This document shows positions 13,031-54,008 of a stretch of DNA of 64,000 nt, one piece after another. Position numbers and translations under genes: made by a program. The stretch lies in the NCBI RefSeq assembly GCF_019334345.1, contig NZ_JAHWQX010000005.1, positions 1 through 64,000 on the forward strand. The letters are read 5' to 3'. The notes below the pieces were generated by a model. The model saw nothing but the letters and a program-made list of their open reading frames with translations, was not told the origin of the DNA and made no database searches. Within the stretch, counting starts at the first letter, position 1. Each line of letters opens with the position of its first letter. Source of the DNA: Neohoeflea coraliihabitans. GTDB taxonomy: Bacteria; Pseudomonadota; Alphaproteobacteria; Rhizobiales; Rhizobiaceae.

Positions 13031-13096
13031 GCCGTCCTGCCTCCCGCAGTTGTGCGTGTCTCTGCCGCACATTCAGTCGTGATTTTGGTCCTGCCG

Positions 13097-13894: not shown

Positions 13895-13928
13895 GATTGC
13901 CTCCCAGACCCCATGGTCAACATGAAAA

Positions 13929-13956: not shown

Positions 13957-13974
13957 GCACAACAGAGCCGGCGA

Positions 13975-36976: not shown

Positions 36977-37007
36977 TCGGGACGTTTATTTTCAGAGGAG
37001 GAAACCA

Positions 37008-38105
37008 ATGACTCAATCCCCAGACCGCAACACCTTTCGGCAGGCACGACGCCTGCTTGTAGCCGGACTATTCGCCAGCGGCTGCGGCCTCGCATTGCCG
37101 GCGCATGCCGCCGAAGAGATCGACGTCTCGATCGTTTCGGGCTTTTCACCGGCTGTGGCCGCGGTCAAGATGCTCAAGGAGAGCTTCATGCCGGGCGTGG
37201 ACGAGCGGCTGGCAAAGACGGGTAACTACAAGATCAACTGGCAGGAAGCCTTTTCCGGCACGCTCGCCAAGCCGGCCGGAGAACTCGAAGCCATCGAGAC
37301 GGGCCTGGCCGACATGGGCGTCATTCCGACCGGGTTTCACGCCGACAAGCTGCCTGTCTACCAGATTGGCTATGTGACGCCATTCACCACCACGGATCTG
37401 GTCCTGATCCACAAGGTGGTGGATGAGCTGGTCGAGAAATATCCGGCCTTCCGCGAGACCTGGGAGGGGCTCAATCAGGTGACGCTCTCGGCGAGCGGCA
37501 TTCCGGACAATTACATTATCTGCTCGAGCAAGCCGGTCGAATCGGTTGCCGATATCGAAGGGTTGAAGATTGCCGGCGCCGGACCCAATCTGCGCTGGAT
37601 CGAACCGGCTGGCGCCACCGGTGTCACTGGCTCGCTGGGCAATTTCTACCAGCTCGTTGAAACCGGCGTCGTCGATGCGATGCTGGTGTGGGGCGAGTCC
37701 GTGGTCTCATTGAAATTCTACGAGGTTTGCGGCAATTATTTCGATGCCAAGCTTGGTGGCGTGAACTCCTATGTCATCAACGCAAACAAGCAATCCTGGG
37801 AGAGCTATCCGGATGAGGTCAAGGAGGCGATGATCGCCGCGGCCAAGGATTACGGTGTTGATATCGGCGAGTTCGCGGCACGGCTTGGCGCCAAGGCGCG
37901 CGAGACGGTTCTGGAAAACGGCGGCACCGTTGTCGAGATTGATCCGGCCGAGCGCACCGAGCTTGCCGAATCGCTGCCCAATCTCGCCCAGGAATGGGCT
38001 GAGTCTCTCGAAGCGCAGGGCGTGCCGGCGAAGGAAATCCTCGCCGAGTACATGCAGGCGATGCGCGATGCCGATCAGCCGATCGCGCGCCAGTGGGACC
38101 AATGA
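37008..38105 (+). CDS. TRAP transporter solute-binding protein (DctP type)
   Basis: A 365-residue periplasmic protein. The signal peptide has RRLLVAGLFASGCGLALP and a cleavage site near AHA-AEE. The mature part shows the DctP fold, with GELEAIETGLADMGVI and VVDAMLVWGESV. At the position where most DctP proteins have the carboxylate-binding Arg after the 'LKI' strand, this one reads GLKIAGAG (Ala189), with another Arg at 195. A non-typical ligand is therefore possible. AGAGGAGG precedes the ATG, the strongest ribosome site in the region. The stop overlaps the small-permease start. Confidence 0.87.
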   Translation: MTQSPDRNTFRQARRLLVAGLFASGCGLALPAHAAEEIDVSIVSGFSPAVAAVKMLKESFMPGVDERLAKTGNYKINWQEAFSGTLAKPAGELEAIETGLADMGVIPTGFHADKLPVYQIGYVTPFTTTDLVLIHKVVDELVEKYPAFRETWEGLNQVTLSASGIPDNYIICSSKPVESVADIEGLKIAGAGPNLRWIEPAGATGVTGSLGNFYQLVETGVVDAMLVWGESVVSLKFYEVCGNYFDAKLGGVNSYVINANKQSWESYPDEVKEAMIAAAKDYGVDIGEFAARLGAKARETVLENGGTVVEIDPAERTELAESLPNLAQEWAESLEAQGVPAKEILAEYMQAMRDADQPIARQWDQ

Positions 38106-38674
38106 CACCAGAGCAAAACAAAGCTTCCGGAGGGGCCCCGGCCCCTTCGGAAGCAAACTGGCTGTCGCGCGGCTTCAAGACCGTCGTCGGCAGCATGGAT
38201 ATCCTCGGCGCCGCCATGGTGCTCGGCATGGTTATCCTGGTGAATATGGATGTGTTCGGTCGCTGGCTGTTTAACGCGCCGATGCCGGGAACGCTGGAAC
38301 TGACCGAACTGGGAATCGTCGCGGTGGTCTATCTACAACTGGCCTATGCCATCCGAAGCCGGCGTCTGACGCGATCCGACAGCTTTCTCGATTTTCTCGC
38401 CCGCAAAGGGGCATTGCGCGCCAATGCCGGCCTGCGGTTTGTCTTCAATCTCTGCGGCGCTGCAATTCTGACGATCATTGCCTATGGCCAGTTGCCGCGG
38501 CTGATCGATGCCTGGAGCCGCGGCTACTTCAAAGGCAATGTCGGGGTGTTCACAGCGCCGACCTGGCCGTTCGAAACCATTCTGCTGATCGGCGCCAGCG
38601 CCGGCGCGATCCAGTTTCTGGTGTTGGCGTTCGGTAATCTGGCGCAATGGCGAAAAGCGAGGTCAGTCGCGTGA
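38102..38674 (+). CDS. TRAP transporter small permease (DctQ type)
   Basis: A 190-residue protein with about four membrane helices (around residues 38-58, 68-85, 110-130 and 158-178). MVILVNMDVFGRWLFN and the helix pattern are typical of DctQ subunits, which bridge the binding protein and the large permease. It starts in the four-base ATGA overlap with the binding-protein gene. Its N-terminal coding part contains a strong RNA hairpin (38123-38154). Confidence 0.88.
   Translation: MTPEQNKASGGAPAPSEANWLSRGFKTVVGSMDILGAAMVLGMVILVNMDVFGRWLFNAPMPGTLELTELGIVAVVYLQLAYAIRSRRLTRSDSFLDFLARKGALRANAGLRFVFNLCGAAILTIIAYGQLPRLIDAWSRGYFKGNVGVFTAPTWPFETILLIGASAGAIQFLVLAFGNLAQWRKARSVA
38123..38154. repeat. 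Strong hairpin within the start of dctQ
   Basis: GCTTCCGGAGGGGC (38123-38136) and GCCCCTTCGGAAGC (38141-38154) form a 14-bp stem with one G-T wobble and a CCCG loop, 18 bases after the binding-protein stop. Its position suggests protection of the upstream binding-protein mRNA or reduced readthrough into the membrane subunits. It lacks a T-run. Confidence 0.55.
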
Positions 38675-38717
38675 CCGTTCTGGCAAGGCGATTTTCCGCA
38701 ACGCCCGGAGGCGCCGT

Positions 38718-40064
38718 ATGAGCGGCATCGAAATCGGATTTCTCTCGGTCGGCTCGATCGTTCTGCTGATCTATTCGGGGCTGCATGTGGGTATTGCCCT
38801 GAGCCTGGTCTCCTTCGTATCCGTGGCGCTGCAGAAAAACAGCCTGACCCTGGCGGTCAAGCTGCTGACGCTGGCGGCCGCCGACGGCATTGCCGATCAG
38901 ACTTTCGCGGTCATCCCGCTGTTCGTGCTGATGGGCCTGATCATGAGCGCTTCCGATGTGGGGCGCGATGCCTACGATGTCGGCGACTATTTCCTGCGCC
39001 GGATTCGCGGCGGTCTGGGACTTGCGACGGTCGGTTCCAATGCCGTGTTCGCCGCCGTGACCGGCGTGTCGATCGCCTCGGCGGCCGTCTTCACCCGCGT
39101 CGCGGTCCCGGAAATGCTGCGCCTTGGCTACAATCCGCGTTTTGCAGTCGGCACCGTTGCCGGCAGTTCGGTGCTCGGCATGCTTATACCGCCCAGCATT
39201 CTCCTGATCATCTATGCCATCCTTGTCGAGGAATCGATCGGCATGATGTTCTTTGCGGGCATCGGTCCGGGCATTCTGCTTTCCGGCGTTTACTGCGCGG
39301 GGATCATCGGCATGGCCTATCTCATGCCCGGTTTCGTCTATGACCGCACCGGCCGCTACGCAGCGGCTGCGGCAGCGGCCGCCGGCGGGACCGCCGAACC
39401 ACCACGCAACGGACGAACGATCATTCTCAAGGCGCTGCCGCTGCTCGGCCTGGTCCTTATCGTTCTGGGCGGCATCTACGGCGGCATCTTCACGCCGACC
39501 GAAGCGGGAGCGGTCGGATCAGCCGCCGCCCTGCTGCTGGCCATTGCCCGCCGGCGGATGAACCTGAAAGCCTTCTGGAAGGTCGTGCGCGAGACGGGAC
39601 ACATCACGGCTTCGATCTGCTTTCTGATCATCGCCGCGACCATGTACAGCCGATCGCTGGCGCTGGCCGGCGTGCCGGCGGAAATCGGCGAGATGGTGCG
39701 CACAACCACCGGTGAATTTCTGCTTGTCGTGGCAATCTACGTGCTGATCGTCTTGGTTCTCGGCACCATCATCGATTCCGTCTCGATCATCCTGATCATG
39801 GTCCCGTTGTTTCTTCCAGTCATGCAGGGATTTGGGGCCGATCCGATCTGGTTCGGCATTCTGACGGTCATCGCCGTCGAAGTCGGCCTGCTCAGTCCGC
39901 CCATGGGGATTGCCTGTTTCGTCATCAAAGGCTGCCTCGACGACCCGTCGATCACGCTTGGCGATGTGTTCCTCGGCGCGCTACCATTCGCGATCATGAT
40001 GGTCCTGGTGCTGGCACTCCTGACAGCCTGGCCGCATCTGGTCTATATCAATCAGTGGCTGTAG
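38718..40064 (+). CDS. TRAP transporter large permease (DctM type)
   Basis: A 448-residue polytopic protein of the DctM family with about twelve hydrophobic segments. Landmarks are FAVIPLFVLMGLIMS, AVTGVSIASAAVFTRVAVPEM and LIPPSILLIIYAILVEESIG, all family-conserved. It catalyses Na+- or H+-driven uptake together with the DctP and DctQ proteins. The C-terminal GVKMPP-like counterpart of the active site region reads GLLSPPMGIACFVIKG, as is normal. A LacI-type regulator gene follows after 65 bp. Confidence 0.9.
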   Translation: MSGIEIGFLSVGSIVLLIYSGLHVGIALSLVSFVSVALQKNSLTLAVKLLTLAAADGIADQTFAVIPLFVLMGLIMSASDVGRDAYDVGDYFLRRIRGGLGLATVGSNAVFAAVTGVSIASAAVFTRVAVPEMLRLGYNPRFAVGTVAGSSVLGMLIPPSILLIIYAILVEESIGMMFFAGIGPGILLSGVYCAGIIGMAYLMPGFVYDRTGRYAAAAAAAAGGTAEPPRNGRTIILKALPLLGLVLIVLGGIYGGIFTPTEAGAVGSAAALLLAIARRRMNLKAFWKVVRETGHITASICFLIIAATMYSRSLALAGVPAEIGEMVRTTTGEFLLVVAIYVLIVLVLGTIIDSVSIILIMVPLFLPVMQGFGADPIWFGILTVIAVEVGLLSPPMGIACFVIKGCLDDPSITLGDVFLGALPFAIMMVLVLALLTAWPHLVYINQWL

Positions 40065-40129
40065 TCCGGCATGCTTGCGTGACTTGAGGTGAGCCGGACG
40101 CCGGCTCTGCGTGAGGCGAGGGCGGCACC

Positions 40130-41200
40130 GTGAACGAGAAAAAAGCCCCCAGAGGCCGTCCCCGGGTGCGGCTCTCCGATGTGGCCGCTGCGGCGGGGGT
40201 CCACGCTTCGACCGTGTCGCGTGTGCTGCGGCCGGGCGCTGATGGTCGCGTCTCCGGCGAAGTGGCCGAAAAGATCCGAAGCATGGCGCAGAAGATGGGC
40301 TACCGGCCCAATTCCCTGGCCTCGGGGTTGCGGACCAATTCGACCCGCTCCATCGGACTGATCATTCATGACATGAATGATCCGGTGTACCCGCCGATCC
40401 TCAGTGGCATCGAAGCGCAACTGGCGCCACAGGAATTCGTCGTGCTCGTCGGCAACACCGGCTACGATCTCAAGTCGGAACTCGAACTGGTCGATCGCAT
40501 GGCGGCGCAAATGGTCGATGGCCTGTTTCTGGCCACGACGCGGCTTGACGACCCGGTGGTGCGGCGGTGCCGCGACTACGCCATCCCCGTCGTCTCCGTG
40601 CTTCGCTTTTCGGAGGATGACTTCACGCCGGCGGTCATCAATGACTGCTATGGCGGCATGCGTGATCTGGTGCAGCACGCCATTGCGCTCGGGCATCGTG
40701 ATCTTGCACATATCGGGGCGCCGCAGACGCTTTCCACGGCGCGCGAGCGACTGCATGGTTACCGCGACGCGCTTGCAGAGGCCGGGTTCGCCATGCGCAA
40801 TGACCGGTTGACTTTTGTCACAAGGATGACGGTGGAAGGCGGCGAACAGGCAACGCGCCGGTTGCTTGCGGAAGCGGAGTCTCCTCCCTCCGTTCTGATC
40901 TGTGTCAATGATCTCGTCGCGCTGGGGGCGCTGCGGGCGTGCCGGGATGTCGGCCTGCGGGTGCCGGAGGATATCTCGATCACCGGCTACAATAATATCC
41001 CGCTGGTCGGCATGATCGATCCGCCACTAACCACCGTGAAAATGGATCTTGACCGGATTGGCCGAACTGCCGGAGCCGTGATGCTGGACCTGCTCTTGGG
41101 CAAATCCGACCCCCCATCCGCAAAGGCGGCGCAGCGGATCCGCCGCATCGCCTCGACCCAGATCCCCCGCGCTTCACTGGCACCGGCGCGCACCGGCTGA
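40130..41200 (+). CDS. LacI-family transcriptional regulator
   Basis: A 356-residue repressor. The N-terminal HTH is LSDVAAAAGVHASTVSRVLR (about residues 15-34) with hinge GYRPNSLASGLR. The effector domain is type-I periplasmic-binding-like (IGLIIHDMNDPVYPP, DGLFLATTR, LICVNDLVALGALRA, ISITGYNNIPL). The GTG start at 40130 is used. The gene follows the TRAP operon in the same direction, making the TRAP genes or the oxidoreductase genes its likely targets; no clear LacI operator was found by eye. Confidence 0.88.
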   Translation: MNEKKAPRGRPRVRLSDVAAAAGVHASTVSRVLRPGADGRVSGEVAEKIRSMAQKMGYRPNSLASGLRTNSTRSIGLIIHDMNDPVYPPILSGIEAQLAPQEFVVLVGNTGYDLKSELELVDRMAAQMVDGLFLATTRLDDPVVRRCRDYAIPVVSVLRFSEDDFTPAVINDCYGGMRDLVQHAIALGHRDLAHIGAPQTLSTARERLHGYRDALAEAGFAMRNDRLTFVTRMTVEGGEQATRRLLAEAESPPSVLICVNDLVALGALRACRDVGLRVPEDISITGYNNIPLVGMIDPPLTTVKMDLDRIGRTAGAVMLDLLLGKSDPPSAKAAQRIRRIASTQIPRASLAPARTG

Positions 41201-42277: not shown

Positions 42278-43321
42278 ATGATCCGTCTGGCGCAAACTGG
42301 CCTGAGCCGCCGATCCTTGTTGAAGTCGATGTGCGCTACGGCGGGGGCACTGTCCGCCGGCACGTTCGTCAGCATCGACAGGGCGCGTGGCCAGGATATG
42401 TTCGATGTGACACTGCAACTCGGCTGGCTGGCCAGCAATGGCATTCTGGGCGAAGTGGTCGCGGACAAGAAGGGATTCTTCGCCGAGGAGGGGCTGACGC
42501 TCGATATCGTACCGGGCGGACCAAATATTGACGGTGTCGCGTCGGTTGCCTCCGGGCGTGCGAATCTTGGATCGATTTCATCGAGCCCGTCCTTGATGCT
42601 CGCCCGCTCTGCCGGATTGCCGATAAAATGCATTGCTGCAGGCTATCAGCAGCATCCATTCACGTATTTCTCACTCAAGAAAAACCCGGTGAATGTGCCC
42701 GCAGATCTGGTCGGAAAGCGCGTCGCCACCAACGGCACCGCCCGTATCCTGCTTCGTGCCCTGCTGGCCAAGAACGAGATCTCGGAGGACGATGTCGAGG
42801 TTTCGGTGATGGGGTCCGACATGGCGCCGTTGATGACCGGGCAGGTGGACGTGGTCACCGGCTGGAAGACGAACACCAGCGCGCTAGCCATTCTCGGCGA
42901 TCAGCGCAACGACATGTCCCTGTGGGATGCCGGCATCCAGCTTTATGCAAACCCCTATTATGTCACCGACAGCACGCTTGCCGATCACCCGGAACAGGTT
43001 GCCGCCATGATACGGGCGATCTCACGCGGCTGGGGTTATGTCCATGACAATCGCGAGGAAGCCGTCGACATCCTGGTCGAACGGTATCCGAACATGGACC
43101 GCCAGAAGGAGCTTGAGACGGTCGATCTCGTCGTTGACTACTCGTTCAACGAGAACACCGCAGCCAATGGCTGGGGGACGATGACGAAAGAGAACTGGCA
43201 GGCCCAGATCGACATCTACGATGAGCTTGGACAGTTCGAGAACGACGCCCCTGCGGTCGATGACATCATGACGCTCTCGATCCTTGAGGAAACCGCGGAA
43301 ACGCGTCCCAAATACGGGTGA
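42278..43321 (+). CDS. ABC transporter substrate-binding protein (NMT1/THI5/TauA-like)
   Basis: A 347-residue periplasmic protein. The N-terminus has a twin-arginine signal: Ser10-Arg11-Arg12 then SLLK and a hydrophobic run ending near ARGQD, suggesting Tat export of a folded protein. The body matches NMT1/SsuA-like proteins: FDVTLQLGWLASNG, GFFAEEGLTLDIVPGG, GVASVASGRANLG. This family carries small anionic or heterocyclic compounds (sulfonates, nitrate, pyrimidine precursors, riboflavin, phthalate). It is the first gene of an operon that also encodes an FAD oxidoreductase and CoA enzymes, so the ligand is probably their substrate. Confidence 0.87.
   Translation: MIRLAQTGLSRRSLLKSMCATAGALSAGTFVSIDRARGQDMFDVTLQLGWLASNGILGEVVADKKGFFAEEGLTLDIVPGGPNIDGVASVASGRANLGSISSSPSLMLARSAGLPIKCIAAGYQQHPFTYFSLKKNPVNVPADLVGKRVATNGTARILLRALLAKNEISEDDVEVSVMGSDMAPLMTGQVDVVTGWKTNTSALAILGDQRNDMSLWDAGIQLYANPYYVTDSTLADHPEQVAAMIRAISRGWGYVHDNREEAVDILVERYPNMDRQKELETVDLVVDYSFNENTAANGWGTMTKENWQAQIDIYDELGQFENDAPAVDDIMTLSILEETAETRPKYG
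42623..42644 (+). repeat. Near-copy of the LysR-region element inside the binding-protein gene
   Basis: ATAAAATGCA-TT-GCTGCAGGCT matches 42161-42182 at 20 of 22 bases; only the central TT/CC pair differs. It lies about 460 bp downstream of the promoter copy and within coding sequence (PIKCIAAG). It may be a downstream operator or the trace of a short duplication. Confidence 0.4.
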
Positions 43322-43330
43322 GGTGAGCCG

Positions 43331-44140
43331 ATGTCTGGAACGGCCAAGATTTCAGCGGCGCCGACCTCCCTGCCGGCCGGCGCGATCGCTGCTTCGCTCA
43401 GGAACGCCTGTGTCAAGTTCGGGTCGTTCACGGCAATTGACGGCATATCGATCGATATCGAGGAAGGCCAGTTCTACACGATCCTCGGGCCATCCGGCTG
43501 CGGCAAGTCGACCATGCTGCGGCTGGTGTCGGATCTGATCCCCGCCGCTTCCGGCGATGTGACGATCTTCGGCAAATCGACGGAAGAGGCACGGCTTGCC
43601 CGGGAGTTCGCGTTCGTCTTTCAGGATGCGACCTTGCTTCCCTGGCGGTCCGCTCTGAAGAACGTGGAACTGCCGCTCGAGATCGGTCGCCGGCGCGGTG
43701 TGCCCATTCCGGTCGGCGACAAGACGCCACGCGAGCTGCTTGACCTGGTTGGGCTGAGCGGCCGTGAGGACGCCCTGCCGCATGAATTGTCCGGTGGCAT
43801 GCGACAGCGGGTCGCCATCGCGCGGGCCCTGGTGTGTCATCCGAAACTGTTGCTGATGGACGAGCCATTCGGGGCGCTCGACGAGATGACGCGCGATCAT
43901 CTCAACTTGCAGCTGCTGCGGATCTGGAAAGAAACCGGCGTGACGATCCTGTTTGTCACCCACTCCATTCCGGAGGCGGTGTTTCTCGGCCAGAAGGTTC
44001 TGATGCTGCAGGCGCACCCCGGCCGTCTGCGCGAAGTCGTCGATATCGACCTGCCCAGTCCGCGCACCATCGAACAGCGCGATACGCCGGAATTTACCCG
44101 CTACTCCGCATATTTGCGCAAGCTGTTAGAGACGTGCTGA
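43331..44140 (+). CDS. ABC transporter ATPase (SsuB/TauB type)
   Basis: A 269-residue ATPase. Walker A GPSGCGKST is near residue 56, the Q-loop lies in FVFQDATLLPW, the signature is LSGGMRQRVAIARAL and Walker B is LLMDEPFGALDE, followed by the H-loop in VTHSIPEAV. These match the nitrate/sulfonate/taurine importer branch. It overlaps the permease start by one base and is ten bases behind the binding-protein stop. Confidence 0.92.
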   Translation: MSGTAKISAAPTSLPAGAIAASLRNACVKFGSFTAIDGISIDIEEGQFYTILGPSGCGKSTMLRLVSDLIPAASGDVTIFGKSTEEARLAREFAFVFQDATLLPWRSALKNVELPLEIGRRRGVPIPVGDKTPRELLDLVGLSGREDALPHELSGGMRQRVAIARALVCHPKLLLMDEPFGALDEMTRDHLNLQLLRIWKETGVTILFVTHSIPEAVFLGQKVLMLQAHPGRLREVVDIDLPSPRTIEQRDTPEFTRYSAYLRKLLETC

Positions 44141-44946
44141 TGACTGCCGTGGACAACATTCCGACCGCCGAGGAGCCGATAGGTTCTGAACGCATGGAGG
44201 CGCGCCGCACCAGATCGGTGGCGATCGCTATCCCCGTGATGACGGCAGCAGCACTGATCGCGTTGTGGCAGATCGGGGTGAAGCTTTTTGACGTGCCGAC
44301 CTATATCGCGCCCGCGCCGTCGGATATTGCCTACACCCTGGTGGACAAGTTCCCGATTCTGCTGATGAATTTCTGGCCGACATTCTATGAGAGCGTGCTC
44401 GGCTTTTTTGTCGGCAATATTGCCGCCATTCTCATCGCCGTTGCGTTCGTTCACAGCCGCATGGTCGAGCGTGCGTTTTTCCCGATCGCGGTTTTCATAA
44501 ATACGATCCCGATCCTGGCGATCGCACCGATCCTGGTGCTTATTTTCGGGCCCGGCCTGACCGCAAAGGTGGTGATCGCGGCATTAATCTGCTTCTTCCC
44601 GACCCTGGTCAACATGGTGCGCGGCCTGCAAGCGGTAAGTCCGCAGGCTTTGGAGCTGGCGCGGATCCTGTCCGCTTCGAAAGCCGAGATCTTCTGGAAG
44701 ATCCGGCTGCCATCCTCGCTGCCATTCCTGTTTTCCGCGCTGAAGATCGCAGCGACGACCTGTGTCATTGGCGCGATTGTCGGAGAATGGGTCGGGGCGG
44801 ATGTTGGGCTTGGCGCATTGATCATCGATGCGACCTTCAACTTCAATTCACCGCTGCTCTACGCAACGGTCTTCATGTCGTCCGGTCTTTCCGTCGTGTT
44901 GTTCGCAACCGTTTCGACGATCGAGAGGCTGGTGGTGCGCTGGTAA
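44140..44946 (+). CDS. ABC transporter permease (SsuC/TauC type)
   Basis: A 268-residue inner-membrane protein with about six helices. The EAA-type loop is visible in QALELARILSASKAEIFWKIRLPSSLPFL (split here by its Gly-free centre), and GAIVGEWVGADVGLGALI is typical of the SsuC branch. The ATG overlaps the ATPase stop (TGATG). It completes the importer before the catabolic genes. Confidence 0.9.
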   Translation: MTAVDNIPTAEEPIGSERMEARRTRSVAIAIPVMTAAALIALWQIGVKLFDVPTYIAPAPSDIAYTLVDKFPILLMNFWPTFYESVLGFFVGNIAAILIAVAFVHSRMVERAFFPIAVFINTIPILAIAPILVLIFGPGLTAKVVIAALICFFPTLVNMVRGLQAVSPQALELARILSASKAEIFWKIRLPSSLPFLFSALKIAATTCVIGAIVGEWVGADVGLGALIIDATFNFNSPLLYATVFMSSGLSVVLFATVSTIERLVVRW

Positions 44947-44974
44947 GCGTAACACTTTGATTTAAATTAGGAAA

Positions 44975-45031
44975 ATGCGCCTCATGAGCCAAGCGGCCTG
45001 GTGGCGCAACAGAAGGAGTATGCGGCAGTGA
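44975..45031 (+). CDS. Possible 18-residue leader peptide coupled to the FAD oxidoreductase
   Basis: A short frame from ATG 44975 encodes 18 residues (MRLMSQAAWWRNRRSMRQ) and its stop overlaps the GTG start of the next gene as GTGA. AGGA lies just before it. It contains Trp-Trp and several Arg codons. Coupling or attenuation is possible, but a frame this short is easily fortuitous. Confidence 0.25.
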   Translation: MRLMSQAAWWRNRRSMRQ

Positions 45032-46410
45032 GCGCTCAGCAGAAAGATCACATCAGTTCCCGCAGCGAACAGGTGCCGGTCGTGGCGGATACCGACGTCG
45101 TCGTCATCGGCGCGGGCCCTGCCGGTGTGTCCGCTGCGGTGTCAGCGGCGCGCAACGGAGCCTCGGTAACGTTGCTGGAACGCTATCACCATCTCGGTGG
45201 CATGGCATCGGGCGGCATGGTCCTCGTGCTTGACGACATGGTCAACGAGGGCAATGAAATTGTCACCACCGGTATCGTCAGCGAATATGTTGACCGGATG
45301 GTCAAACAAGACGGCGCGGTCTATCCGCCTCCAGCGGATTGCCAGACCAACTGGGAGATGTGGCAGAAGTGGTCGCGCTGGGGCTGCATTGACTTCCACA
45401 AGACCGGTATGCCGCAACCGATCATTCATGCCGTCGCCTTCGATCCGGACGCGTGGAAACGGGTGAGTCTCGATCTGGTGCGCGAGGCGGGCGTGAACTT
45501 GCGGCTGCACTCGTGGTTTTCCGAAGCTCTTGTCGAGGACAACCGGGTGACCGGAGTGATCTGCCAAACCAAGGTCGGACGGCAGGCTATCCGGGCCAGG
45601 ATGGTTGTCGATGCGAGTGGCGACCTCGATGTTGCCGCCTCCGCCGGCGCCCGTTTCGTCGACGGACAATACATCGTCACGACGGTTTTCCGGCTCTGCG
45701 ATGTGGACACAGAGAAGGCCGAGGCGTTCGAATACGCCCATCCCGAAGAGTACAAGAAGCTCGATCGGCAGGCGCGCCGGGTCATCGGTGGAGCCTGGGG
45801 GATGTGGTGGCTGAAGACGCCGCTTCCCGGGGTCGTGTGGTGCAACTGCCCGCACATGCCCGGCTATGACGGTCTGTCGCCCGAAGACATGGTTGCGGCG
45901 GAATACGAAGGGCGCGAGCGCATGATGAAGCTGCTCGCCTTTGCCCGCGCCAATCTGCCGGGTTTCGAGAATGCGAAAATGCTCGGGGCCGCCGAGCAGA
46001 TGGGTATCCGTCAGACGCGTTTGCTGCAGGGCGAATATGTGGTGACGAAGGACGACGTGAAAAGCCGCCGTCATTTCGCCGACAGCGTCTGCCGGGGGCG
46101 GGATTACTATACGCCCTATCGTGCTCTTTTGCCCAAAGGCATCGACAATCTGATTGTCGCCGGGCGCCATTATTCGGTTGAGAGCGAGGCGCAGAAGATG
46201 TCGCGCGAAATTCCGCCCTGCATGTCGCAGGGCGAGGCCGCCGGCGTCGCCGTGGCGCTGGCGCTGCATCAGAACAAGGCGCTGCGGGACGTCGATCCGC
46301 GACAGATCCAGAAACAGATGCGCGCCCAGGGCGCCGATCCCGGCGATGTTCCCTCGCCCAATGCGCTGGTCGAGAGATCGTCGCCAGCCGCAGAAAAACA
46401 GGACGCATAG
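45028..46410 (+). CDS. FAD-dependent oxidoreductase (FAD_oxidored family)
   Basis: About 460 residues. The dinucleotide motif DVVVIGAGPAGVSAAVSAA is near residue 26 and HHLGGMASGGMVLVLDD follows; VVDASGDLDVAASAGA and the C-terminal DNLIVAGRHYSVESEAQKM are typical of the FAD_oxidored family (HdrA/fumarate-reductase-like flavoproteins of unassigned substrate). The GTG at 45028 is chosen since AAGGAG lies ten bases upstream; a GTG at 45001 is also in frame. A 7Fe ferredoxin in the same operon is its possible redox partner. Confidence 0.82.
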   Translation: MSAQQKDHISSRSEQVPVVADTDVVVIGAGPAGVSAAVSAARNGASVTLLERYHHLGGMASGGMVLVLDDMVNEGNEIVTTGIVSEYVDRMVKQDGAVYPPPADCQTNWEMWQKWSRWGCIDFHKTGMPQPIIHAVAFDPDAWKRVSLDLVREAGVNLRLHSWFSEALVEDNRVTGVICQTKVGRQAIRARMVVDASGDLDVAASAGARFVDGQYIVTTVFRLCDVDTEKAEAFEYAHPEEYKKLDRQARRVIGGAWGMWWLKTPLPGVVWCNCPHMPGYDGLSPEDMVAAEYEGRERMMKLLAFARANLPGFENAKMLGAAEQMGIRQTRLLQGEYVVTKDDVKSRRHFADSVCRGRDYYTPYRALLPKGIDNLIVAGRHYSVESEAQKMSREIPPCMSQGEAAGVAVALALHQNKALRDVDPRQIQKQMRAQGADPGDVPSPNALVERSSPAAEKQDA

Positions 46411-46419
46411 GAGATGGCG

Positions 46420-47586
46420 ATGCCGCAGAATACACTTCCCCTCGACGGTATCCGGGTCCTTGATTTCACCCAGGTCATGCTCGGTCCCTGCGCCACCCAG
46501 ATGCTCGCCGACTTCGGCGCCGATGTCATCAAGGTCGAACGGCCGGGCGCGGGAGATCTGTCACGCAGCTTTTACGGCGAAACAAGCGAGGAGGCGCTGA
46601 ACAACGCCGTGTTTGCCTCGCTCAATCGCAACAAGCGATCCGTGGAAATCGACACGAAATCGGCCGATGGCAAGGCGATGGTCTATGAGCTGGTGCGCCA
46701 GTCGGATGTGGTGGTCGATAATTTTCGGGCGGGCGTCATGGACCGGCTGGGTTTTGGCTACGACGAATTGAAAAAGATCAATCCGGGGATCATCTGCGCC
46801 TCCGGCACCGGGTTCGGAGCCACGGGCCCCTATGCCCACAAGGGGGGGCAGGACGTGCTCGCCCAGGCCATGAGCGGCGTGATGGAAAAAACCGCCGACC
46901 CGTCGATCCCGAAATCGATCTATCCGACAACATTGTGCGACTATACGGCAGGCATGCATCTGGTGCAGGGCGTGCTGGCGGCGCTGCTTGCGCGCGAGAA
47001 GACGGGGCACGGCCAGAAGGTCAGCGTTTCGCTCTACGATTCGATGATCGCCATGCAGATGCAGGAGGCTGCACAATGGAACAAGCATGGCGAAGTTCTC
47101 AACTGGGCGGCGATGCCGCTGACCGGTGTATTCGATACGACGGACGGGGCGCTCGTGGTTGTCGGCGCATTCAAGAAAAATCCGTTGCAGGATATCTGCA
47201 CGGCACTCGGCATCGAGGACCTGTCCACCGACTATCCGGATCTGGCGAGCCAGCGAAAGAACAAGCCGTTCCTGCAGAATGTATTCCGCGAGCGCTTCGC
47301 AACGAACACGACGGCGCATTGGCTGGAGCGCCTTGAATCACGGGACCTGTTGTGCGCGCCGGTGCGGCCGCTCGGCGAGGCCCTGGACGATCCGCAGACG
47401 GCGATCAACGAGATGCTCGTCAAGATCGACCATCCGGTACTCGGCGAGATCACGCTCGTCGGCTCACCCGTGCATCTGAGCGATGCACCGCTCAAGGTCC
47501 GCCACGTGCCGCCACGGCTTGGCGAGCATACGTCCGAGGTGATCGAAGAATTCGGCCTCGACAGACGAGAGAGAGCCGCGGGATGA
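46420..47586 (+). CDS. Class III CoA-transferase (CaiB/BaiF family)
   Basis: About 388 residues. The family N-terminus is DGIRVLDFTQVMLGPCATQMLADFGAD (split here after GPCAT), followed by DVIKVERPGAGD, with the catalytic Asp expected in the segment around KTADPSIPKS/ LCDYTAGMH (about 165). CaiB-type enzymes move CoA between carboxylic acids, usually as the activation step for degradation. ATG 46420 is preferred because GGAG lies six bases upstream; ATG 46414 is too close. It overlaps the enoyl-CoA hydratase gene by four bases. Confidence 0.88.
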   Translation: MPQNTLPLDGIRVLDFTQVMLGPCATQMLADFGADVIKVERPGAGDLSRSFYGETSEEALNNAVFASLNRNKRSVEIDTKSADGKAMVYELVRQSDVVVDNFRAGVMDRLGFGYDELKKINPGIICASGTGFGATGPYAHKGGQDVLAQAMSGVMEKTADPSIPKSIYPTTLCDYTAGMHLVQGVLAALLAREKTGHGQKVSVSLYDSMIAMQMQEAAQWNKHGEVLNWAAMPLTGVFDTTDGALVVVGAFKKNPLQDICTALGIEDLSTDYPDLASQRKNKPFLQNVFRERFATNTTAHWLERLESRDLLCAPVRPLGEALDDPQTAINEMLVKIDHPVLGEITLVGSPVHLSDAPLKVRHVPPRLGEHTSEVIEEFGLDRRERAAG

Positions 47587-48359
47587 GCGTCACATTTACC
47601 AGCAAAGATCATGTGGCGCGCGTTACGATCGACCGCCCGCAACGGATGAATGCCATCGATGCGGCAACTGCCGGCGAGCTGGAGACGATCTGGCAGAAGA
47701 TCGAGGCCGATCCATCCGTGCGCTGCGTCGTGTTGACCGGCGCGGGGGATCGCGCCTTTTCCGCCGGCGCCGATCTGAAGGACGAGACCGGGGTGAGCGG
47801 ACTCGATTACTGGGCGGCGGCCAACCCGGAAGGCTTCGGCGCCATCGCGTTCCGGCGCTCGCTGAAGGTTCCGGTCATCGCCCGGGTCAACGGCGTGGCG
47901 CTTGGCGGCGGCATGGAGATGGTGCTCGGCTGCGATATCGTCATTGCCGCCGAAAGCGCCCGCTTCGGGCTGCCTGAGGCCAAGGTTGGCAACCTTCCCC
48001 TTGCCGGCGGCATGACCTTGCTGCAGCGTCTCATCCCCCGCAACATCGCGGTCGGATTGATGATGACAGGCCGCATGGCGTCGGCACAGGAAATGGCCCA
48101 CTACGGCCTCGTCAATGCAGTCGTTCCGGCGGACGAACTGGACGCGGAAACCGACCGGTGGGTGGCCGATATCCTTGCATGCGCGCCGCTTTGCCTGCGC
48201 GCCATCAAGGCGACCGTGCGCGACACTGCCGAATTGCCGCCCGATCAGGCGCAGGCGATGCGCAGTCCGGATCTGATCGCCGCGCTCGTCTCCGACGATT
48301 CCCAGGAAGGGGTCCGCGCGTTCCGGGAAAAGCGGGCACCGGTCTGGCAGGGGAAGTGA
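47583..48359 (+). CDS. Enoyl-CoA hydratase/isomerase family protein
   Basis: A 258-residue crotonase-fold protein. The oxyanion-hole blocks are AFSAGADLKDE (about 58-68) and NGVALGGGMEMVLGCDI (about 103-119), and a catalytic Glu candidate lies in GLPEAKVGNLP. It resembles carnitinyl/crotonobetainyl-CoA hydratase (CaiD) and other members of wide substrate range. It presumably acts on the CoA ester made by the preceding CoA-transferase. Start overlaps the previous stop. Confidence 0.88.
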   Translation: MSVTFTSKDHVARVTIDRPQRMNAIDAATAGELETIWQKIEADPSVRCVVLTGAGDRAFSAGADLKDETGVSGLDYWAAANPEGFGAIAFRRSLKVPVIARVNGVALGGGMEMVLGCDIVIAAESARFGLPEAKVGNLPLAGGMTLLQRLIPRNIAVGLMMTGRMASAQEMAHYGLVNAVVPADELDAETDRWVADILACAPLCLRAIKATVRDTAELPPDQAQAMRSPDLIAALVSDDSQEGVRAFREKRAPVWQGK

Positions 48360-48365
48360 ACCGCC

Positions 48366-48713
48366 ATGGCGCTGGTCATCACAGGCGAATGCATCGATGT
48401 GAAGGACGGCATCTGTACGACCGCGTGTCCCGTCGACTGCATTTATGAAGGCGAGCGGATGTTCTACATCCATCCAACTGAATGCATCGAATGCGGAATG
48501 TGCGAATCGATCTGCCCGGTCGATGCCATTCGGTACGAAGATGAAGTCGAGGACGCGGATGCAGAATTCGTGAAAATCAATGCCGAGGTCTTCATGGATG
48601 ATGATGGTCAGATTTCGCAACCGGGCGGATGGAAGAAGCACTCGCCTCCCGTTCCGGATCATCCAATTGTCCGGACATTCAAGGGCCGTGAGCCTGAAAC
48701 GCAAGATCAATAG
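48366..48713 (+). CDS. 7Fe-8S ferredoxin (FdxA/FdI type)
   Basis: A 115-residue ferredoxin. Cysteines at 9, 17, 21 and 25 and at 40, 43, 46 and 50 reproduce the spacing of Azotobacter FdI (one residue shifted), which binds one [3Fe-4S] and one [4Fe-4S] cluster. CPVDCIYEG and CPVDAI are family motifs, followed by an acidic stretch and a Pro-rich tail. Unlike a housekeeping fdxA it is embedded in a catabolic operon, so it may carry electrons to or from the FAD oxidoreductase encoded upstream. GGAAG-type spacing is short: seven bases after the previous stop. Confidence 0.88.
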   Translation: MALVITGECIDVKDGICTTACPVDCIYEGERMFYIHPTECIECGMCESICPVDAIRYEDEVEDADAEFVKINAEVFMDDDGQISQPGGWKKHSPPVPDHPIVRTFKGREPETQDQ

Positions 48714-48719
48714 GAGAAA

Positions 48720-49646
48720 ATGATGGAGGGTATCGTTGCCGCCGTGCCGACGCCGGTAGACGCGCAAGGGGTGCCGCAGCGCGATCTGTTCATCGAGCAT
48801 TGTCGATGGGCGCTCGGCAATGGCTGCAATGCGCTGAACATTCTCGGATCGACCGGCGAAGCGAATTCGTTGAGGACGGAAGATCGCATGCGCGTCATGG
48901 GCTGGGCGGCTGAAACGCTGGATCGCACGCGCCTGATGGTCGGAACCGGCACACCCTCACTCGCAGAGACGATCAGCCTGACGCAATGCGCCGCCGAAAA
49001 CGGCTACCGGGTCGCTCTGGTGCTCCCGCCCTATTATTACAAGCCGGTGACGGATGACGGGCTTTTCCGATGGTATGCCGCCTTGCATGACGCACTCGGC
49101 GCGGCAAAGATCGGCATCTATTTCTACAATTTTCCGCAGATGACCGGGCTCAAGCTCTCGGTCTCGCTGATCGAGAGGCTGCATTTGGCATATCCGCACA
49201 GATTTGCCGGCATCAAGGATTCCTCCGGCGATCTCGCCTATTGCCGCGAGATCGTCTCGCGCCTGCCGGGTTTCAAAGTCTTTCCAAGCTCCGAAACCTC
49301 GCTGTCCGAGGCCGCGCAATCCGGCTTTGCCGGCTGTATCTCCGCGACGGTCAATCAGAGTGCGCCGCTTTGCGCTGAGCTGTGGGCGCGCCGGTCACAG
49401 CCGGACAGCGCTCTCGTTGAGGCGGTCGGCGCGATGCGAACAGCAATCAGCAGCCAGCCGCTGATTCCCTCAGTCAAATATCTGGTCGGGCGCCGCACCG
49501 GCGAAGAAAGCTGGAGCAATGTCGTGCCGCCCTTCGTGGCACTCGACGATGGCGTGAAAGCAGCCCTTGATGCCATCGACCTCAACCCGGTGGCGTCAGC
49601 CGAATTCGCCGCAGCAACCTCAGAGAGAAGCAATGAACAAGCATGA
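48720..49646 (+). CDS. DHDPS-family aldolase/dehydratase (DapA superfamily)
   Basis: A 308-residue TIM-barrel lyase. GSTGEANSL (about 41-49) is the pyruvate/keto-acid-binding loop, the catalytic Tyr is in FYNFPQMTG and the Schiff-base Lys is in FAGIKDSSGD (about residue 166). The gene pairs with a 2-oxoglutarate-semialdehyde-type dehydrogenase directly behind it; such pairs occur in 3-deoxy sugar acid and hydroxyproline catabolism, where the lyase gives 2-oxoglutarate semialdehyde. Whether that is the reaction here is not proven. GGAG precedes the ATG; MM at the start leaves two options (48720 or 48723). Confidence 0.85.
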   Translation: MMEGIVAAVPTPVDAQGVPQRDLFIEHCRWALGNGCNALNILGSTGEANSLRTEDRMRVMGWAAETLDRTRLMVGTGTPSLAETISLTQCAAENGYRVALVLPPYYYKPVTDDGLFRWYAALHDALGAAKIGIYFYNFPQMTGLKLSVSLIERLHLAYPHRFAGIKDSSGDLAYCREIVSRLPGFKVFPSSETSLSEAAQSGFAGCISATVNQSAPLCAELWARRSQPDSALVEAVGAMRTAISSQPLIPSVKYLVGRRTGEESWSNVVPPFVALDDGVKAALDAIDLNPVASAEFAAATSERSNEQA

Positions 49647-51069
49647 CAACCTGATCAACGGCAAGTGGGTCAGCTTTGACAACTATCATGACAACGTCAA
49701 TCCGTCGGACACCCATGATGTCATCGGTGTCTATTCCTACGGCAATGAGGACGCGGTGGCGACGGCAACCGAAGCCGCCGCGGCAGCTCGCGAGCAGTGG
49801 GCTGAAAGCACGCCGCAGGCCCGCCACGATCTTCTCGATGCCGTCGGCAATGCGCTTGCCGCCCGCCGTGAGGAAATCGGTCGACTGCTGTCGCGGGAAG
49901 AGGGCAAGACGCTTGCCGAAGGGATCGGCGAGACGATGCGCGCCTCCCAGGTCTTCAAGTTCTTTGCCGGCGAGGCCCTGCGGCAGGTCGGCGATCTGCA
50001 ACCCTCGGTCCGGCCCGGCATCGATGTCGAGGTAACCCGCGAACCGGTCGGCATCGTCGGCATCATCACGCCGTGGAATTTCCCGATCGCCATTCCGGCC
50101 TGGAAGATTGCGCCGGCACTGGCCTATGGCAATTGTGTGGTCATGAAGCCCGCCGACCTGACGCCCGGCTGCACGCATGTCATTGCCGAGCTGCTGCACG
50201 AGAACGGCTGCCCGCCCGGCGTCTTCAATCTGGTCATGGGCCGCGGCTCCAGCGTTGGCGAGGCGATCGTGACCCATCCGGACATTGCGGCGGTTTCCTT
50301 CACCGGCTCCGTCAAAACCGGCAATCACATTGCCGAGGTGTGCGGCCGGATGAAGAAGAAAGTGCAGCTGGAAATGGGCGGCAAGAACCCGATGGTGGTT
50401 CTCAATGACGCAGATCTGTCACTGGCGGTGCCGGCCTGCCTGAATGGCACCTTCTTCTCCACCGGACAACGCTGCACCGCGTCGTCGCGGCTGATCGTCG
50501 AATCCGGCATTCACGACGATTTTGTCGCGGAACTGAGCGCGCAGATGCAAGCTCTGAAAGTCGGTGATGCGCTCGACAGCGGCACGCAGATCGGTCCGGT
50601 GGTCGATGAGCGTCAGTTGAAATCCAATCTCGAATATGTCGAACTGGCAAAAACCGAGGCCGCCGAGGTTATCGGCGGTGAACGGCTGGATCTCGACAAG
50701 CCGGGCTTTTACCAGGCGCCGGCTCTGTTCATCGGCACCGACAACGCAATGCGCATCAATCGTGAAGAGATCTTCGGCCCGTGTGGCTCCGTGATCAAGG
50801 TCGATGATCTCGAGAACGCGATCGCCGTCGCCAATGATACGGATTTCGGATTGTCCGCCGGCATTTGCACCTCGAACCTCAAATCGGCGCGCGAATTCAA
50901 GCGTCGGGCGCAGGCCGGCATGGTCATGGTCAATCTGCCGACCGCCGGCGTTGACTATCACGTGCCTTTCGGCGGTCGAAAGGCCTCCTCGTTCGGCCCA
51001 CGCGAGCAGGGCCGCTATGCGGTCGAGTTCTACACGACCGTCAAGACCGCCTATGTGCTTGCAGGTTGA
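49633..51069 (+). CDS. Aldehyde dehydrogenase, 2-oxoglutarate-semialdehyde (2,5-dioxopentanoate) type
   Basis: A 478-residue ALDH. NAD-binding PWNFPIAIPAWKIAPALAYG is near residues 150-169, the general base in LEMGGKNP and the catalytic Cys in GQRCTASSR (about residue 284). NLPTAGVDYHVPFGGRKASS near the C-terminus is typical of the 2-oxoglutarate-semialdehyde dehydrogenase group. It would convert the product of the preceding lyase to 2-oxoglutarate. It overlaps that gene by 14 bases, so the two are translationally linked. Confidence 0.87.
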   Translation: MNKHDNLINGKWVSFDNYHDNVNPSDTHDVIGVYSYGNEDAVATATEAAAAAREQWAESTPQARHDLLDAVGNALAARREEIGRLLSREEGKTLAEGIGETMRASQVFKFFAGEALRQVGDLQPSVRPGIDVEVTREPVGIVGIITPWNFPIAIPAWKIAPALAYGNCVVMKPADLTPGCTHVIAELLHENGCPPGVFNLVMGRGSSVGEAIVTHPDIAAVSFTGSVKTGNHIAEVCGRMKKKVQLEMGGKNPMVVLNDADLSLAVPACLNGTFFSTGQRCTASSRLIVESGIHDDFVAELSAQMQALKVGDALDSGTQIGPVVDERQLKSNLEYVELAKTEAAEVIGGERLDLDKPGFYQAPALFIGTDNAMRINREEIFGPCGSVIKVDDLENAIAVANDTDFGLSAGICTSNLKSAREFKRRAQAGMVMVNLPTAGVDYHVPFGGRKASSFGPREQGRYAVEFYTTVKTAYVLAG

Positions 51070-51071
51070 CG

Positions 51072-51521
51072 ATGGCAGAAGAAGCTGAATGGCACGCCCG
51101 CTTTCTCGGACTGGCCGATACCGTTTCGGGCTGGTCCGAGGATCGCGATTTCAAGGTCGGCGCCGTCATTGTCGGCCCGCATCACGAGATTCGTGCCACC
51201 GGATATAACGGGCTGCCGCGGCGCGTTTCTGCCACCGACGAGGCGCGCTTTGACCGCAAGAGCGGCGAGAAGTTCTTCTGGATCGAGCATGCCGAACGCA
51301 ATGCGATTTACAATGCTGCACGCGTCGGCGCGACCCTTGATGGCTGCACCATCTACATCAACCGCTACCCCTGTGCCGACTGTGCCCGGGCGATCATACA
51401 GTGCGGCATCCGCATGGTGGTCTGCCCGCCGAAGCCGGAATTCGACGGAGCACTCGACCACTCTTTCGCGGTTTCCGAGATCATGCTGACGGAGGCCGGG
51501 ATCGTCTGCGTGAACCCCTAG
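51072..51521 (+). CDS. dCMP/cytidine-deaminase-family zinc hydrolase
   Basis: A 149-residue protein of the dCMP deaminase group. The zinc and catalytic residues are His73 and Glu75 in EHAERNAI and Cys101 and Cys104 in YPCADCARAI. The N-terminal KVGAVIVG and GYNGLPR also match. It begins two bases after the dehydrogenase stop and ends the catabolic operon, so it may deaminate an amino-heterocycle or nucleoside-like intermediate rather than dCMP. A housekeeping dCMP deaminase cannot be ruled out. An in-frame TTG at 51066 is a weaker start. Confidence 0.84.
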   Translation: MAEEAEWHARFLGLADTVSGWSEDRDFKVGAVIVGPHHEIRATGYNGLPRRVSATDEARFDRKSGEKFFWIEHAERNAIYNAARVGATLDGCTIYINRYPCADCARAIIQCGIRMVVCPPKPEFDGALDHSFAVSEIMLTEAGIVCVNP

Positions 51522-52436: not shown

Positions 52437-54008
52437 CTATTCCCATTCAATAGTGCCGGGCGGCTTGGAGGTGACGTCGTAGACGACGCGGTTGATGCCC
52501 CGGACCTCGTTGATGATACGGGTGGCAGCGCGACCGAGGAAGTTCATGTCGTAGGGATAGAAATCGGCGGTCATGCCATCGACCGAGGTGACGGCACGCA
52601 GGGCGCAGACAAATTCATAGGTGCGGCCATCGCCCATGACGCCCACCGTCTGCACCGGCAGCAGTACGGCGAAAGCCTGCCAGATCTCGTCATATAGCCC
52701 GGCCTTGCGGATCTCATCGAGATAGATGGCATCGGCCTGCCGCAGGATGTCGAGCTTTTCGCGGGTGATGCCGCCGGGACAACGAATGGCGAGCCCAGGC
52801 CCGGGAAAGGGATGGCGGCCGATAAAACTGTCCGGCAGGCCGAGTTCGCGGCCAAGAGCACGCACCTCGTCCTTGAAAAGTTCGCGCAGCGGCTCGACGA
52901 GTTGCATGTTCATGCGCTCGGGCAAACCGCCGACATTATGATGCGACTTGATGGTGACGGAAGGTCCACCCGAGAAGGAGACGCTTTCGATGACGTCGGG
53001 ATAAAGCGTACCCTGGGCCAGGAAATCGGCGCCGCCGAGCTTTTTCGCCTCTTCCTCGAAAACCTCGATGAACAGGCGACCGATGGTCTTGCGTTTGGTT
53101 TCCGGATCGGCCTCGCCCTCGAGAGCGCCGATGAAGCGATCGGACGCATCGACCAGCTTGAGCGACAGATTGTAATGCTGGCGGAACATGGCGGTGACGT
53201 CGGCCGCCTCATTCTGGCGCATGAGCCCGTGATCAACGAGAATGCAGGTCAGTTGGTCGCCGATCGCCTCGTGGATCAGCAGGGCCGCGACCGAGGAATC
53301 GACACCGCCGGAGAGCGCGCAGATGACCTTGCCATCACCGACCTGCTCACGAATCTTGTCGACCATCTCCTTGCGGTAGGCAGCCATCGTCCAGTCGGAA
53401 TGCATCCCGGCGATCTTGTGCACGAAATTTTGCAACAGACGGGCGCCATCGGCGGTGTGCACCACTTCGGGGTGAAACATCGTCGTGTAATATTTGCGTG
53501 TCTCGTCAACGGCTATGGCACACGGCGCGTTGGGCGAGGTGCCGATCACTTCGAACCCTTCGGGCAGCCGGGTGACGCGGTCTCCATGGCTCATCCATAC
53601 GGGGTAGCGGCCGCCCACCTCCCAGATCCCCTCGAACAAAGGACTTGCCTTGAGGATCTCAACATCGGCACGGCCGAATTCGCGGTGATGGCCGCCTTCG
53701 ACACTGCCGCCAAGCTGGTGGCACAAGGTTTGCTGTCCATAGCAGATGGCAAGGATCGGCACGCCGGATGCGAATACCGCTTCCGGGGCGCGGGGCGAGC
53801 CGTCCTGTGGCACCGAGCCGGGGCCTCCGGAAAAGATCACGGCTTTCGGCTGCAGGCGCTTGAATGCCTCGTCGGCGAGCTGGAACGGAGCAATTTCCGA
53901 ATAGACACCGGTCTCGCGGATACGCCGGGCGATCAACTGGGTGACCTGGCTGCCGAAGTCGATGATCAGCACGGATTCAGGGTGGGAGATTTCTAGCGTG
54001 TCGCTCAT
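52437..54008 (-). CDS. guaA: GMP synthase (glutamine-hydrolysing)
   Basis: A 523-residue enzyme of full length. The class I glutamine amidotransferase domain (about 1-200) has the nucleophile Cys89 in [15 protein letters not shown] and the FHPEV region. The ATP pyrophosphatase domain starts with the P-loop [12 protein letters not shown] (about 228-239). The C-terminal dimerisation domain ends with the invariant KPPGTIEWE. It converts XMP to GMP in purine synthesis. The sequence is conserved and housekeeping in character. Confidence 0.97.

Follow-up and report, generated by a model that had tools for sequence, protein, structure and literature searches.

A conserved catabolic operon of Neohoeflea coraliihabitans and its relatives, probably acting on an amino-heterocycle and possibly on nucleosides

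The carnitine operon, caiTABCDE, is accompanied by fixABCX, and the FixC protein works with a ferredoxin-like partner. Pyrimidine bases are degraded by the reductive pathway (PreTA, PydB, and PydC) or by the Rut pathway. In hydroxyproline catabolism, a DHDPS-family deaminase and an alpha-ketoglutarate-semialdehyde dehydrogenase, the latter described in hydroxyproline clusters, end the route (PMC4113996). The DNA sugar can be degraded by an oxidative deoxyribose/deoxyribonate pathway, which in one host proceeds through acyl-coenzyme A (acyl-CoA) intermediates (PMC6365646). Here we describe a module of ten genes, located at positions 42278-51521 of a 64,000-nucleotide stretch (hereafter the window) of contig NZ_JAHWQX010000005.1 of the alphaproteobacterium Neohoeflea coraliihabitans, which shares components with some of these systems and reproduces none of them. 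It is a widely conserved catabolic operon, probably with an amino-heterocycle as substrate and a product of the alpha-ketoglutarate-semialdehyde type. More tentatively, with a probability of about 0.3, we propose that it imports and degrades a nucleoside via a CoA-bound intermediate, a substrate and a series of reactions all of which we infer.

Like the hydroxyproline (hyp) cluster of Sinorhizobium meliloti, the module combines a DHDPS-family enzyme with a predicted alpha-ketoglutarate-semialdehyde dehydrogenase that would feed 2-oxoglutarate, but it lacks an epimerase and a D-amino-acid oxidase, has a different DHDPS, and adds a CoA-transferase, an enoyl-CoA hydratase, a ferredoxin, a deaminase, and an NMT1-type transporter. 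With the carnitine system it shares a class III CoA-transferase plus a crotonase, a FixC-like fold, and a ferredoxin gene, and recycling of CoA from product to substrate is possible in both; however, the ten genes include neither a CaiA-type acyl-CoA dehydrogenase nor an electron transfer flavoprotein (FixAB), an ABC transporter stands in place of CaiT, and the deaminase, DHDPS, and aldehyde dehydrogenase (ALDH) are additional. The reductive pyrimidine pathway is represented by PreA near the core genes in three loci and by dihydropyrimidinase in two, yet none of its enzymes is encoded inside the operon; among the 29 cluster-bearing genomes searched, PreA occurs in 10 (threshold 1e-90) and PydB in 14 (1e-100), leaving 15 without PydB, and RutA, the hallmark we sought for the Rut pathway, is found in none (1e-100; Escherichia coli and Caulobacter controls positive). 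The deoxyribose/deoxyribonate pathway differs in its enzymes and in its starting point, which is deoxyribose or deoxyribonate already freed from the base (PMC6365646).

A scan with the flavoprotein as query recovered at least 73 related loci, 69 of them among the matches listed at 77-90% identity; more exist beyond the matches listed, which makes the locus total a lower bound. Further loci, including a second clade at 57-64% flavoprotein identity, came from plasmid, relative, and class-wide genome searches. Removal of 21 duplicates, 24 entries that lacked the core or were flank extensions, and 2 without a usable flavoprotein match (L068 and L118) reduced 147 loci to 100 besides that of the window. 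Of these, 72 form a close clade A, defined by a flavoprotein identity of 70% or more, and the other 28 a distant clade B. Synteny was counted, on our own calls of open reading frames (ORFs), in the 77 loci flanked by 6 kb or more on both sides (58 of clade A and 19 of clade B; the 23 others have less than 6 kb on one side), some of which are closely related, such as those of two Roseibium aggregatum strains. The substrate-binding protein, ATPase, permease, CoA-transferase, and hydratase all accompany the flavoprotein in 77/77 loci, a synteny far above chance, and the ferredoxin does so in 75/77. By contrast, the DHDPS-family lyase is found in 42/58 clade A and 5/19 clade B loci, the ALDH of the window type in 30/58 and 0/19, and the dCMP-type deaminase in 45/58 and 2/19. 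The set of ten is not fixed: the core is made of the transporter, flavoprotein, CoA-transferase, hydratase, and nearly always the ferredoxin, and the lyase, ALDH, and deaminase are variable steps. The DHDPS/ALDH pair is thus not supported as the centre of the system, since the core lies elsewhere and both of these genes vary among the 77 loci. Named hosts include Roseibium, Paracoccus, Sulfitobacter, Halomonas, and Rhizobium, and the core is found on large plasmids in several genera. The flavoprotein is rare overall, with matches at E <= 1e-80 in 2 of 398 genomes of the phylum and 16 of 385 of the class, the window's own genome being counted in each. Two contigs labelled as Solirubrobacteraceae and Kiritimatiellae metagenome-assembled genomes (L019 and L054) each encode a flavoprotein, which shares 84% (L019) or 77% (L054) identity with that of the window, and are probably misbinned or recently transferred.

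In the window, all ten genes lie intact on the + strand, without internal stops in an ORF check, and are separated, in gene order, by 9, -1, 54, 3, -4, 6, 6, -14, and -4 bases. They follow a divergent LysR-type regulator gene (41228..~42133, - strand; HTH_1 and LysR_substrate domains in Pfam), the GTG start of which was deduced from homologues. At a 28% identity cut, a LysR relative is present near the flavoprotein gene on the opposite strand in 58/58 clade A loci and in 19/19 clade B loci, there on the opposite strand in 8 and on the same strand in 11; at a 35% cut, only 2/19 clade B loci retain it. Tight packing and overlaps behind the LysR gene had been noted initially and are confirmed by these gaps (-14 to +54 bases), as are the family assignments gene by gene. 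Internal promoters dividing the genes were also sought: between positions 41000 and 52500, 4 promoter-like sites were counted versus 2.8 (standard deviation 1.6) in shuffled sequence and 11 terminator-like sites versus 8.0 (standard deviation 2.9), values close to the shuffled expectation that give no ground for splitting the run, whose interpretation as one operon is supported.

The transporter genes open the module. The NMT1/Thi5-like ABC substrate-binding protein (42278..43321; PF09084, E=9.8e-52) has a Tat-type leader whose twin arginines, R11 and R12, are invariant in 22 aligned sequences, and its residues Trp50, Asp85, His126, Thr154, and Trp196 are invariant in 95/95. The top Foldseek matches of its structural model (predicted local distance difference test, pLDDT, 84.2) are 3ix1, a binder of formylaminopyrimidine (FAMP), and the thiamin-bound 4nmy, followed by Thi5. 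It is followed after 9 bases by the ATPase (43331..44140; PF00005), which overlaps by 1 base the permease (44140..44946; PF00528, start chosen). The next gene encodes the PF12831 flavoprotein, an oxidoreductase dependent on flavin adenine dinucleotide (FAD) (45001..46410; E=7.5e-89), whose model (pLDDT 89.1) has two tied closest folds, FixC of the Fix/EtfABCX complex (7koe_C; Z 22.0, 4.8 Å over 317 residues) and the geranylgeranyl-reductase-like 3oz2 (Z 21.8, 4.2 Å over 310 residues); a sequence search of solved structures yielded a 41-residue match only. The Foldseek and VIA-align comparisons of this predicted model place the protein in a superfamily and give no substrate. Paralogues of the PF12831 type, 29-31% identical to the flavoprotein (L092, at ~403.9-405.3 kb of G000:C2, L093, L095, and L096), mostly have sugar-type ABC transporter genes as neighbours, along with genes of the sugar-acid type identified by eye, and perhaps form a sugar-oxidising family. 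The class III (CaiB/Frc) CoA-transferase (46414..47586; PF02515, E=3.8e-112) conserves in 99/99 sequences Asp176, which we take to be its catalytic residue in preference to Asp209, a variable position (Asp in 82/99). In the crotonase-fold enoyl-CoA hydratase/dehydratase (47583..48359; PF00378, E=3.2e-59, scored on a longer frame), which matches the 3-hydroxypropionyl-CoA dehydratase 5zai at 1e-44, Glu112 and Glu132, presumably the catalytic glutamates, are conserved in 97/97. The core ends with an FdxA-like ferredoxin (48366..48713; top NCBIfam model FdxA_Actino with 118.8 bits, slightly short of the cut-off at 125) with eight Cys, seven of them conserved in 94/94 and the eighth in 93/94.

Among the variable enzymes, the DHDPS-family lyase (48720..49646; PF00701, E=1.5e-35) has Lys166 in 52/53 sequences (the remaining one being ambiguous) and Tyr136 in 53/53. 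At the position that we assume to correspond to the DapA Arg that binds aspartate semialdehyde, it has Met in 47, Leu in 5, and Asn in 1 of the 53, and Arg in none. Its relatives at 31-37% identity are found in unrelated gene settings. The ALDH (49633..51069) conserves Cys281 in 35/35 and has as top model NF042993, of the alpha-ketoglutaric-semialdehyde dehydrogenase type (512.7 bits, under the cut-off of 770). In 5/58 clade A loci, none of which has both, it is replaced by an ALDH of another subfamily, present in six loci in all and 55-65% identical to the ALDH of an S. meliloti pSymB region that also carries DHDPS-like, D-amino-acid-oxidase-like, and proline-racemase-like ORFs and that we take to be the hydroxyproline cluster; the names HypD, HypO, HypRE, HypY, and HypH were assigned to its ORFs by eye. 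Locus L028 encodes a third ALDH, with succinate-semialdehyde dehydrogenase as top model, and an ALDH gene takes this position in L032. The simplest reading of these similarities is a five-carbon 2-oxo semialdehyde as product. The last gene (51066..51521; PF00383, E=8e-22) encodes a zinc deaminase of the dCMP/cytidine-deaminase family that has the His and Glu of the HAE motif and both Cys of PCxxC in 52/52 sequences. In 11/19 clade B loci it is replaced by an amidohydrolase of the TRZ/ATZ type, and the two occur together in 0/77 loci. The nearest models of the amidohydrolase, all under cut-off, are 5'-deoxyadenosine deaminase, N-ethylammeline chlorohydrolase, TRZ/ATZ family hydrolase, and 8-oxoguanine deaminase, and the closest solved relative of that of L123 is a methylthioadenosine/S-adenosylhomocysteine (MTA/SAH) deaminase. 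Because this position is filled by either of two unrelated folds, each of which hydrolyses amino groups of rings, a ring amino group is likely on the substrate or on an intermediate. Three suggestions of the initial annotation gain support from this gene set: CoA-ester chemistry from the PF02515 and PF00378 proteins, whose putative catalytic residues are conserved; a 2-oxoglutarate-type end product, both ALDH subfamilies being nearest to alpha-ketoglutarate-semialdehyde dehydrogenases; and an amino-heterocycle, given the exchange of deaminase folds and a binding protein predicted to fold like pyrimidine binders.

A nucleoside would fit all of these parts, because its base carries an amino group and its five sugar carbons would become the 2-oxo semialdehyde. 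The ABC transporter would import it, and its 5'-CH2OH would be oxidised to a carboxylate by the flavoprotein, for which the ferredoxin would serve as electron partner. The class III CoA-transferase would then shift CoA from product to substrate, recycling it and generating a nucleoside-5'-carboxyl-CoA, from which the crotonase would eliminate the 3'-OH as water. Such an elimination is the reverse of the enoyl-CoA hydratase reaction, in a family for which syn geometry is typical, and D-ribofuranosides have the cis arrangement of C4'-H and C3'-OH that syn elimination needs. The enol ether would hydrolyse to the free base and a five-carbon 2-oxo aldehyde, either 2,5-dioxopentanoate (alpha-ketoglutarate semialdehyde) from a 2'-deoxynucleoside or its 4-hydroxy form from a ribonucleoside, which the ALDH would convert to (4-hydroxy-)2-oxoglutarate. 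Since 4-hydroxy-2-oxoglutarate is a substrate of DHDPS-family aldolases, the DHDPS-family enzyme might act on it as an aldolase releasing pyruvate and glyoxylate, and loci with an ALDH and no DHDPS would handle deoxynucleosides. The deaminase would take the amino group off a base of the cytidine type. If correct, this sequence of 5'-oxidation, CoA activation, and crotonase elimination of the 3'-OH, turning the sugar into (4-hydroxy-)alpha-ketoglutarate semialdehyde and freeing the base, would be a third chemistry for N-glycosidic cleavage besides hydrolysis and phosphorolysis, a proposal that we regard as doubtful and somewhat less probable than nucleoside degradation as such. As a flavoenzyme precedent for the conversion of 5'-CH2OH to a carboxylate, a nucleoside oxidase was reportedly described by Koga et al. 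in 1997; this enzyme is not known to feed a CoA pathway. A single FAD enzyme can also take a sugar CH2OH via the aldehyde to the acid, as does a glucose 6-dehydrogenase of fungal origin that belongs to a different family (PMC11871447). Were the proposal true, the operon would link nucleic-acid scavenging to 2-oxoglutarate, or to pyruvate and glyoxylate, without sugar phosphates, providing a phosphate-free path from DNA and RNA debris to the tricarboxylic acid cycle and a role for this PF12831 flavoprotein lineage.

Genes for base catabolism occur near the core in places and hint there at nucleosides or nucleobases. PreA, over cut-off, is encoded at three independent loci (G701, G501, and L057). 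At G701, the distance from the flavoprotein gene is ~5 to 16 kb for four such genes, which encode dihydropyrimidinase and PreA (each over cut-off), an amidase resembling PydC, and a PreT-like protein. At G501, dihydropyrimidinase, PreA (these two over cut-off), and a PreT-like protein are encoded ~4 to 12 kb from the flavoprotein gene, and the PydC-like gene is ~18 kb distant; a further NMT1-like binding-protein gene, its product 28% identical, lies in between, near the dihydropyrimidinase gene. At L057, PreA (over cut-off) is found ~4 kb past the deaminase, adjoining an ORF that resembles part of PreT. PreA is within 15 kb of the core in 2 of the 10 cluster-bearing genomes that encode it, for which we estimated, after the matches were known, a rough chance of 0.002, assuming 4.5 Mb genomes. 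PreT and PydC were named by eye, the top model of the PydC-like proteins being N-carbamoylputrescine amidase, under cut-off. Flanks were extended for G701, G501, G710, G780, G489, and G658 after first signs in some of them; no PreA or PydB was noticed by eye in the extended flanks of the last four. The omega-aminotransferase AptA (over cut-off) adjoins L086 and L019. Guanine deaminase, XdhA, and XdhB are encoded downstream at L047, where they are over cut-off, and relatives of them occur in four further loci of the same clade, which makes five in total. A Pfam census of flank proteins covered part of the nearest 150 of 563 dereplicated proteins and others added by hand, some of them for their known interest, 12 being dropped for size; its sample is biased, and it was not used as a measure of enrichment. 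At some loci base catabolism accompanies the core, which does not require it; the 15 genomes without PydB and the 29 without RutA indicate that the base need not be the source of the gain. Nucleoside hydrolase is absent from 8/29 and pyrimidine-nucleoside phosphorylase from 6/29 cluster-bearing genomes, and Ppnp from all 29, at the thresholds used. Three genomes of one genus (G614, G701, and G772) have neither of the first two (same thresholds; PF01048 was among the families not searched), and the operon, should it degrade nucleosides, could be their route.

Several observations weigh against nucleoside catabolism. Its weakest step is the flow of electrons from an alcohol oxidation to a ferredoxin, which would be unusual, and, to our knowledge, FixC and geranylgeranyl-reductase-like proteins are not sugar-alcohol dehydrogenases. 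Nucleoside binding and turnover are predicted from the genes themselves, and the top folds of the binding protein are thiamine-related, not those of nucleoside binders. The DHDPS and ALDH assignments come from models scoring below threshold, and neither deaminase is present in 6/19 clade B and 13/58 clade A loci. Most of the 100 loci have no nucleobase gene nearby, the initial stretches showing PydB or PydC at 2, PreA at 1, AptA at 2, and GuaD with XdhA at the 5 kindred ones. In 6 of the 10 cluster-bearing genomes with PreA, its gene is remote from the core on the core contig or sits on a different contig, and the core contigs of G614 and G772 are too short to judge. The window's own genome encodes PreA and PydB on another contig. 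Nucleoside hydrolase is present in 21/29 and pyrimidine-nucleoside phosphorylase in 23/29 cluster-bearing genomes; as most hosts own nucleoside-cleaving enzymes, the operon is not generally a replacement for them. On the core contigs of the 29 genomes, no gene for either enzyme lies less than 20 kb from the core, the nearest being ~23 kb away (G752).

The deaminase exchange, the activation of a carboxylate with CoA, both ALDH types, and the pyrimidine-like binding protein also agree with some other amino-heterocyclic or guanidino acid, derived neither from a nucleoside nor from thiamine, that ends in alpha-ketoglutarate semialdehyde or a similar aldehyde. Such a substrate, possible in our estimation and ranking no lower than a nucleoside, would leave the pyrimidine and purine flank genes of some loci unexplained, and we found no named compound whose degradation uses every gene. 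The picolinate, ectoine, biotin, itaconate, and pyridine routes were discarded as none uses both the deaminase and the dehydrogenase of the alpha-ketoglutarate-semialdehyde type, and homarine and the pRL11 locus tags yielded no lead in the literature. The folds of the binding protein (3ix1 with FAMP, 4nmy with thiamin, and Thi5) bring to mind the pyrimidine of thiamine: hydroxymethylpyrimidine (HMP), its carboxylic acid, or thiamine would be imported, the 4-amino group removed, and the acid activated with CoA before reduction of the ring by the flavoprotein and ferredoxin. Deaminases of 4-aminopyrimidines exist in both folds; however, we found no thiamine pyrophosphate riboswitch, an Rfam search being empty in the window and giving two tRNAs only in seven related loci, and noticed no thiamine gene in the flanks, though no search was aimed at one. 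This route also leaves two ALDHs of the alpha-ketoglutarate-semialdehyde type and the purine genes of five loci unexplained, and we consider it unlikely.

A little less probable still is a pathway feeding on pyrimidine bases, in which cytosine or uracil would be imported and deaminated and the C3 product handled as a CoA ester, the hydratase converting 3-hydroxypropionyl-CoA to acrylyl-CoA ahead of reduction by the flavoprotein and ferredoxin. PreA near three loci, AptA beside two, the hydratase match to 5zai, and the FixC- or reductase-like fold of the flavoprotein would suit it, but the DHDPS and the HypH-like ALDH would be left over, and PydB and RutA are missing from the genomes already mentioned. 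Hydroxyproline or sugar-acid catabolism with passenger genes is very improbable. The ending of the hydroxyproline route in a DHDPS-family deaminase and a semialdehyde dehydrogenase, together with the HypH-like ALDH of six loci, speaks for it, yet homologues of the S. meliloti HypRE, HypO, HypD, and HypY are absent from every core locus at E 1e-25 (other epimerase families were not tried), the window DHDPS is 23% identical to S. meliloti HypD (E=0.004), and the CoA-transferase, hydratase, ferredoxin, and deaminase would have no role. With its racemase and D-amino-acid-oxidase partners missing, the hydroxyproline pathway itself was rejected, bearing out the initial view that it explains only part of the set. 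A sugar-acid route was likewise set aside: sugar transporters adjoin the FAD paralogues alone, and the neighbourhoods of these paralogues gave just a hint of sugar oxidation.

The gene families are known, and the pathway formed by this gene set looks undescribed: searches for the gene set or for nucleoside routes in the open full texts of PubMed Central, a set outside which most subscription papers fall, found no description of the gene set or of its substrate. The core is nevertheless present in about a hundred genomes and plasmids, and the short list of candidates and the conserved binding protein make the question of its substrate directly testable, even if this substrate is not a nucleoside.

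Other genes surround the operon in the window and in related loci. In the window, a TRAP transporter (DctP, DctQ, and DctM) and a LacI regulator (36891-41200) lie directly upstream of the LysR gene and were not noticed next to the core in those related loci for which ORFs were listed. Downstream, past a weak sulfotransferase-like ORF, a GMP synthase (guaA-like, Pfam GMP_synt_C; 52437-54008, - strand) is a purine gene whose proximity is probably a coincidence. The clade B locus L088 has two tandem binding-protein ORFs (12216-14821), the upstream one overlapped by a MaoC-domain ORF, and L087 (12792-17814) carries, past the DHDPS and ferredoxin genes, a BKACE-family gene, an NMT1_3 (TAXI-type) binding protein, and a DctM-type transporter. 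Four loci (L037, L044, L045, and L047) encode, immediately upstream of the LysR gene, a protein with a B12-binding domain (identified with Pfam at L047), which, together with a DUF1638 gene far downstream at L047, suggests a possible link with one-carbon metabolism.

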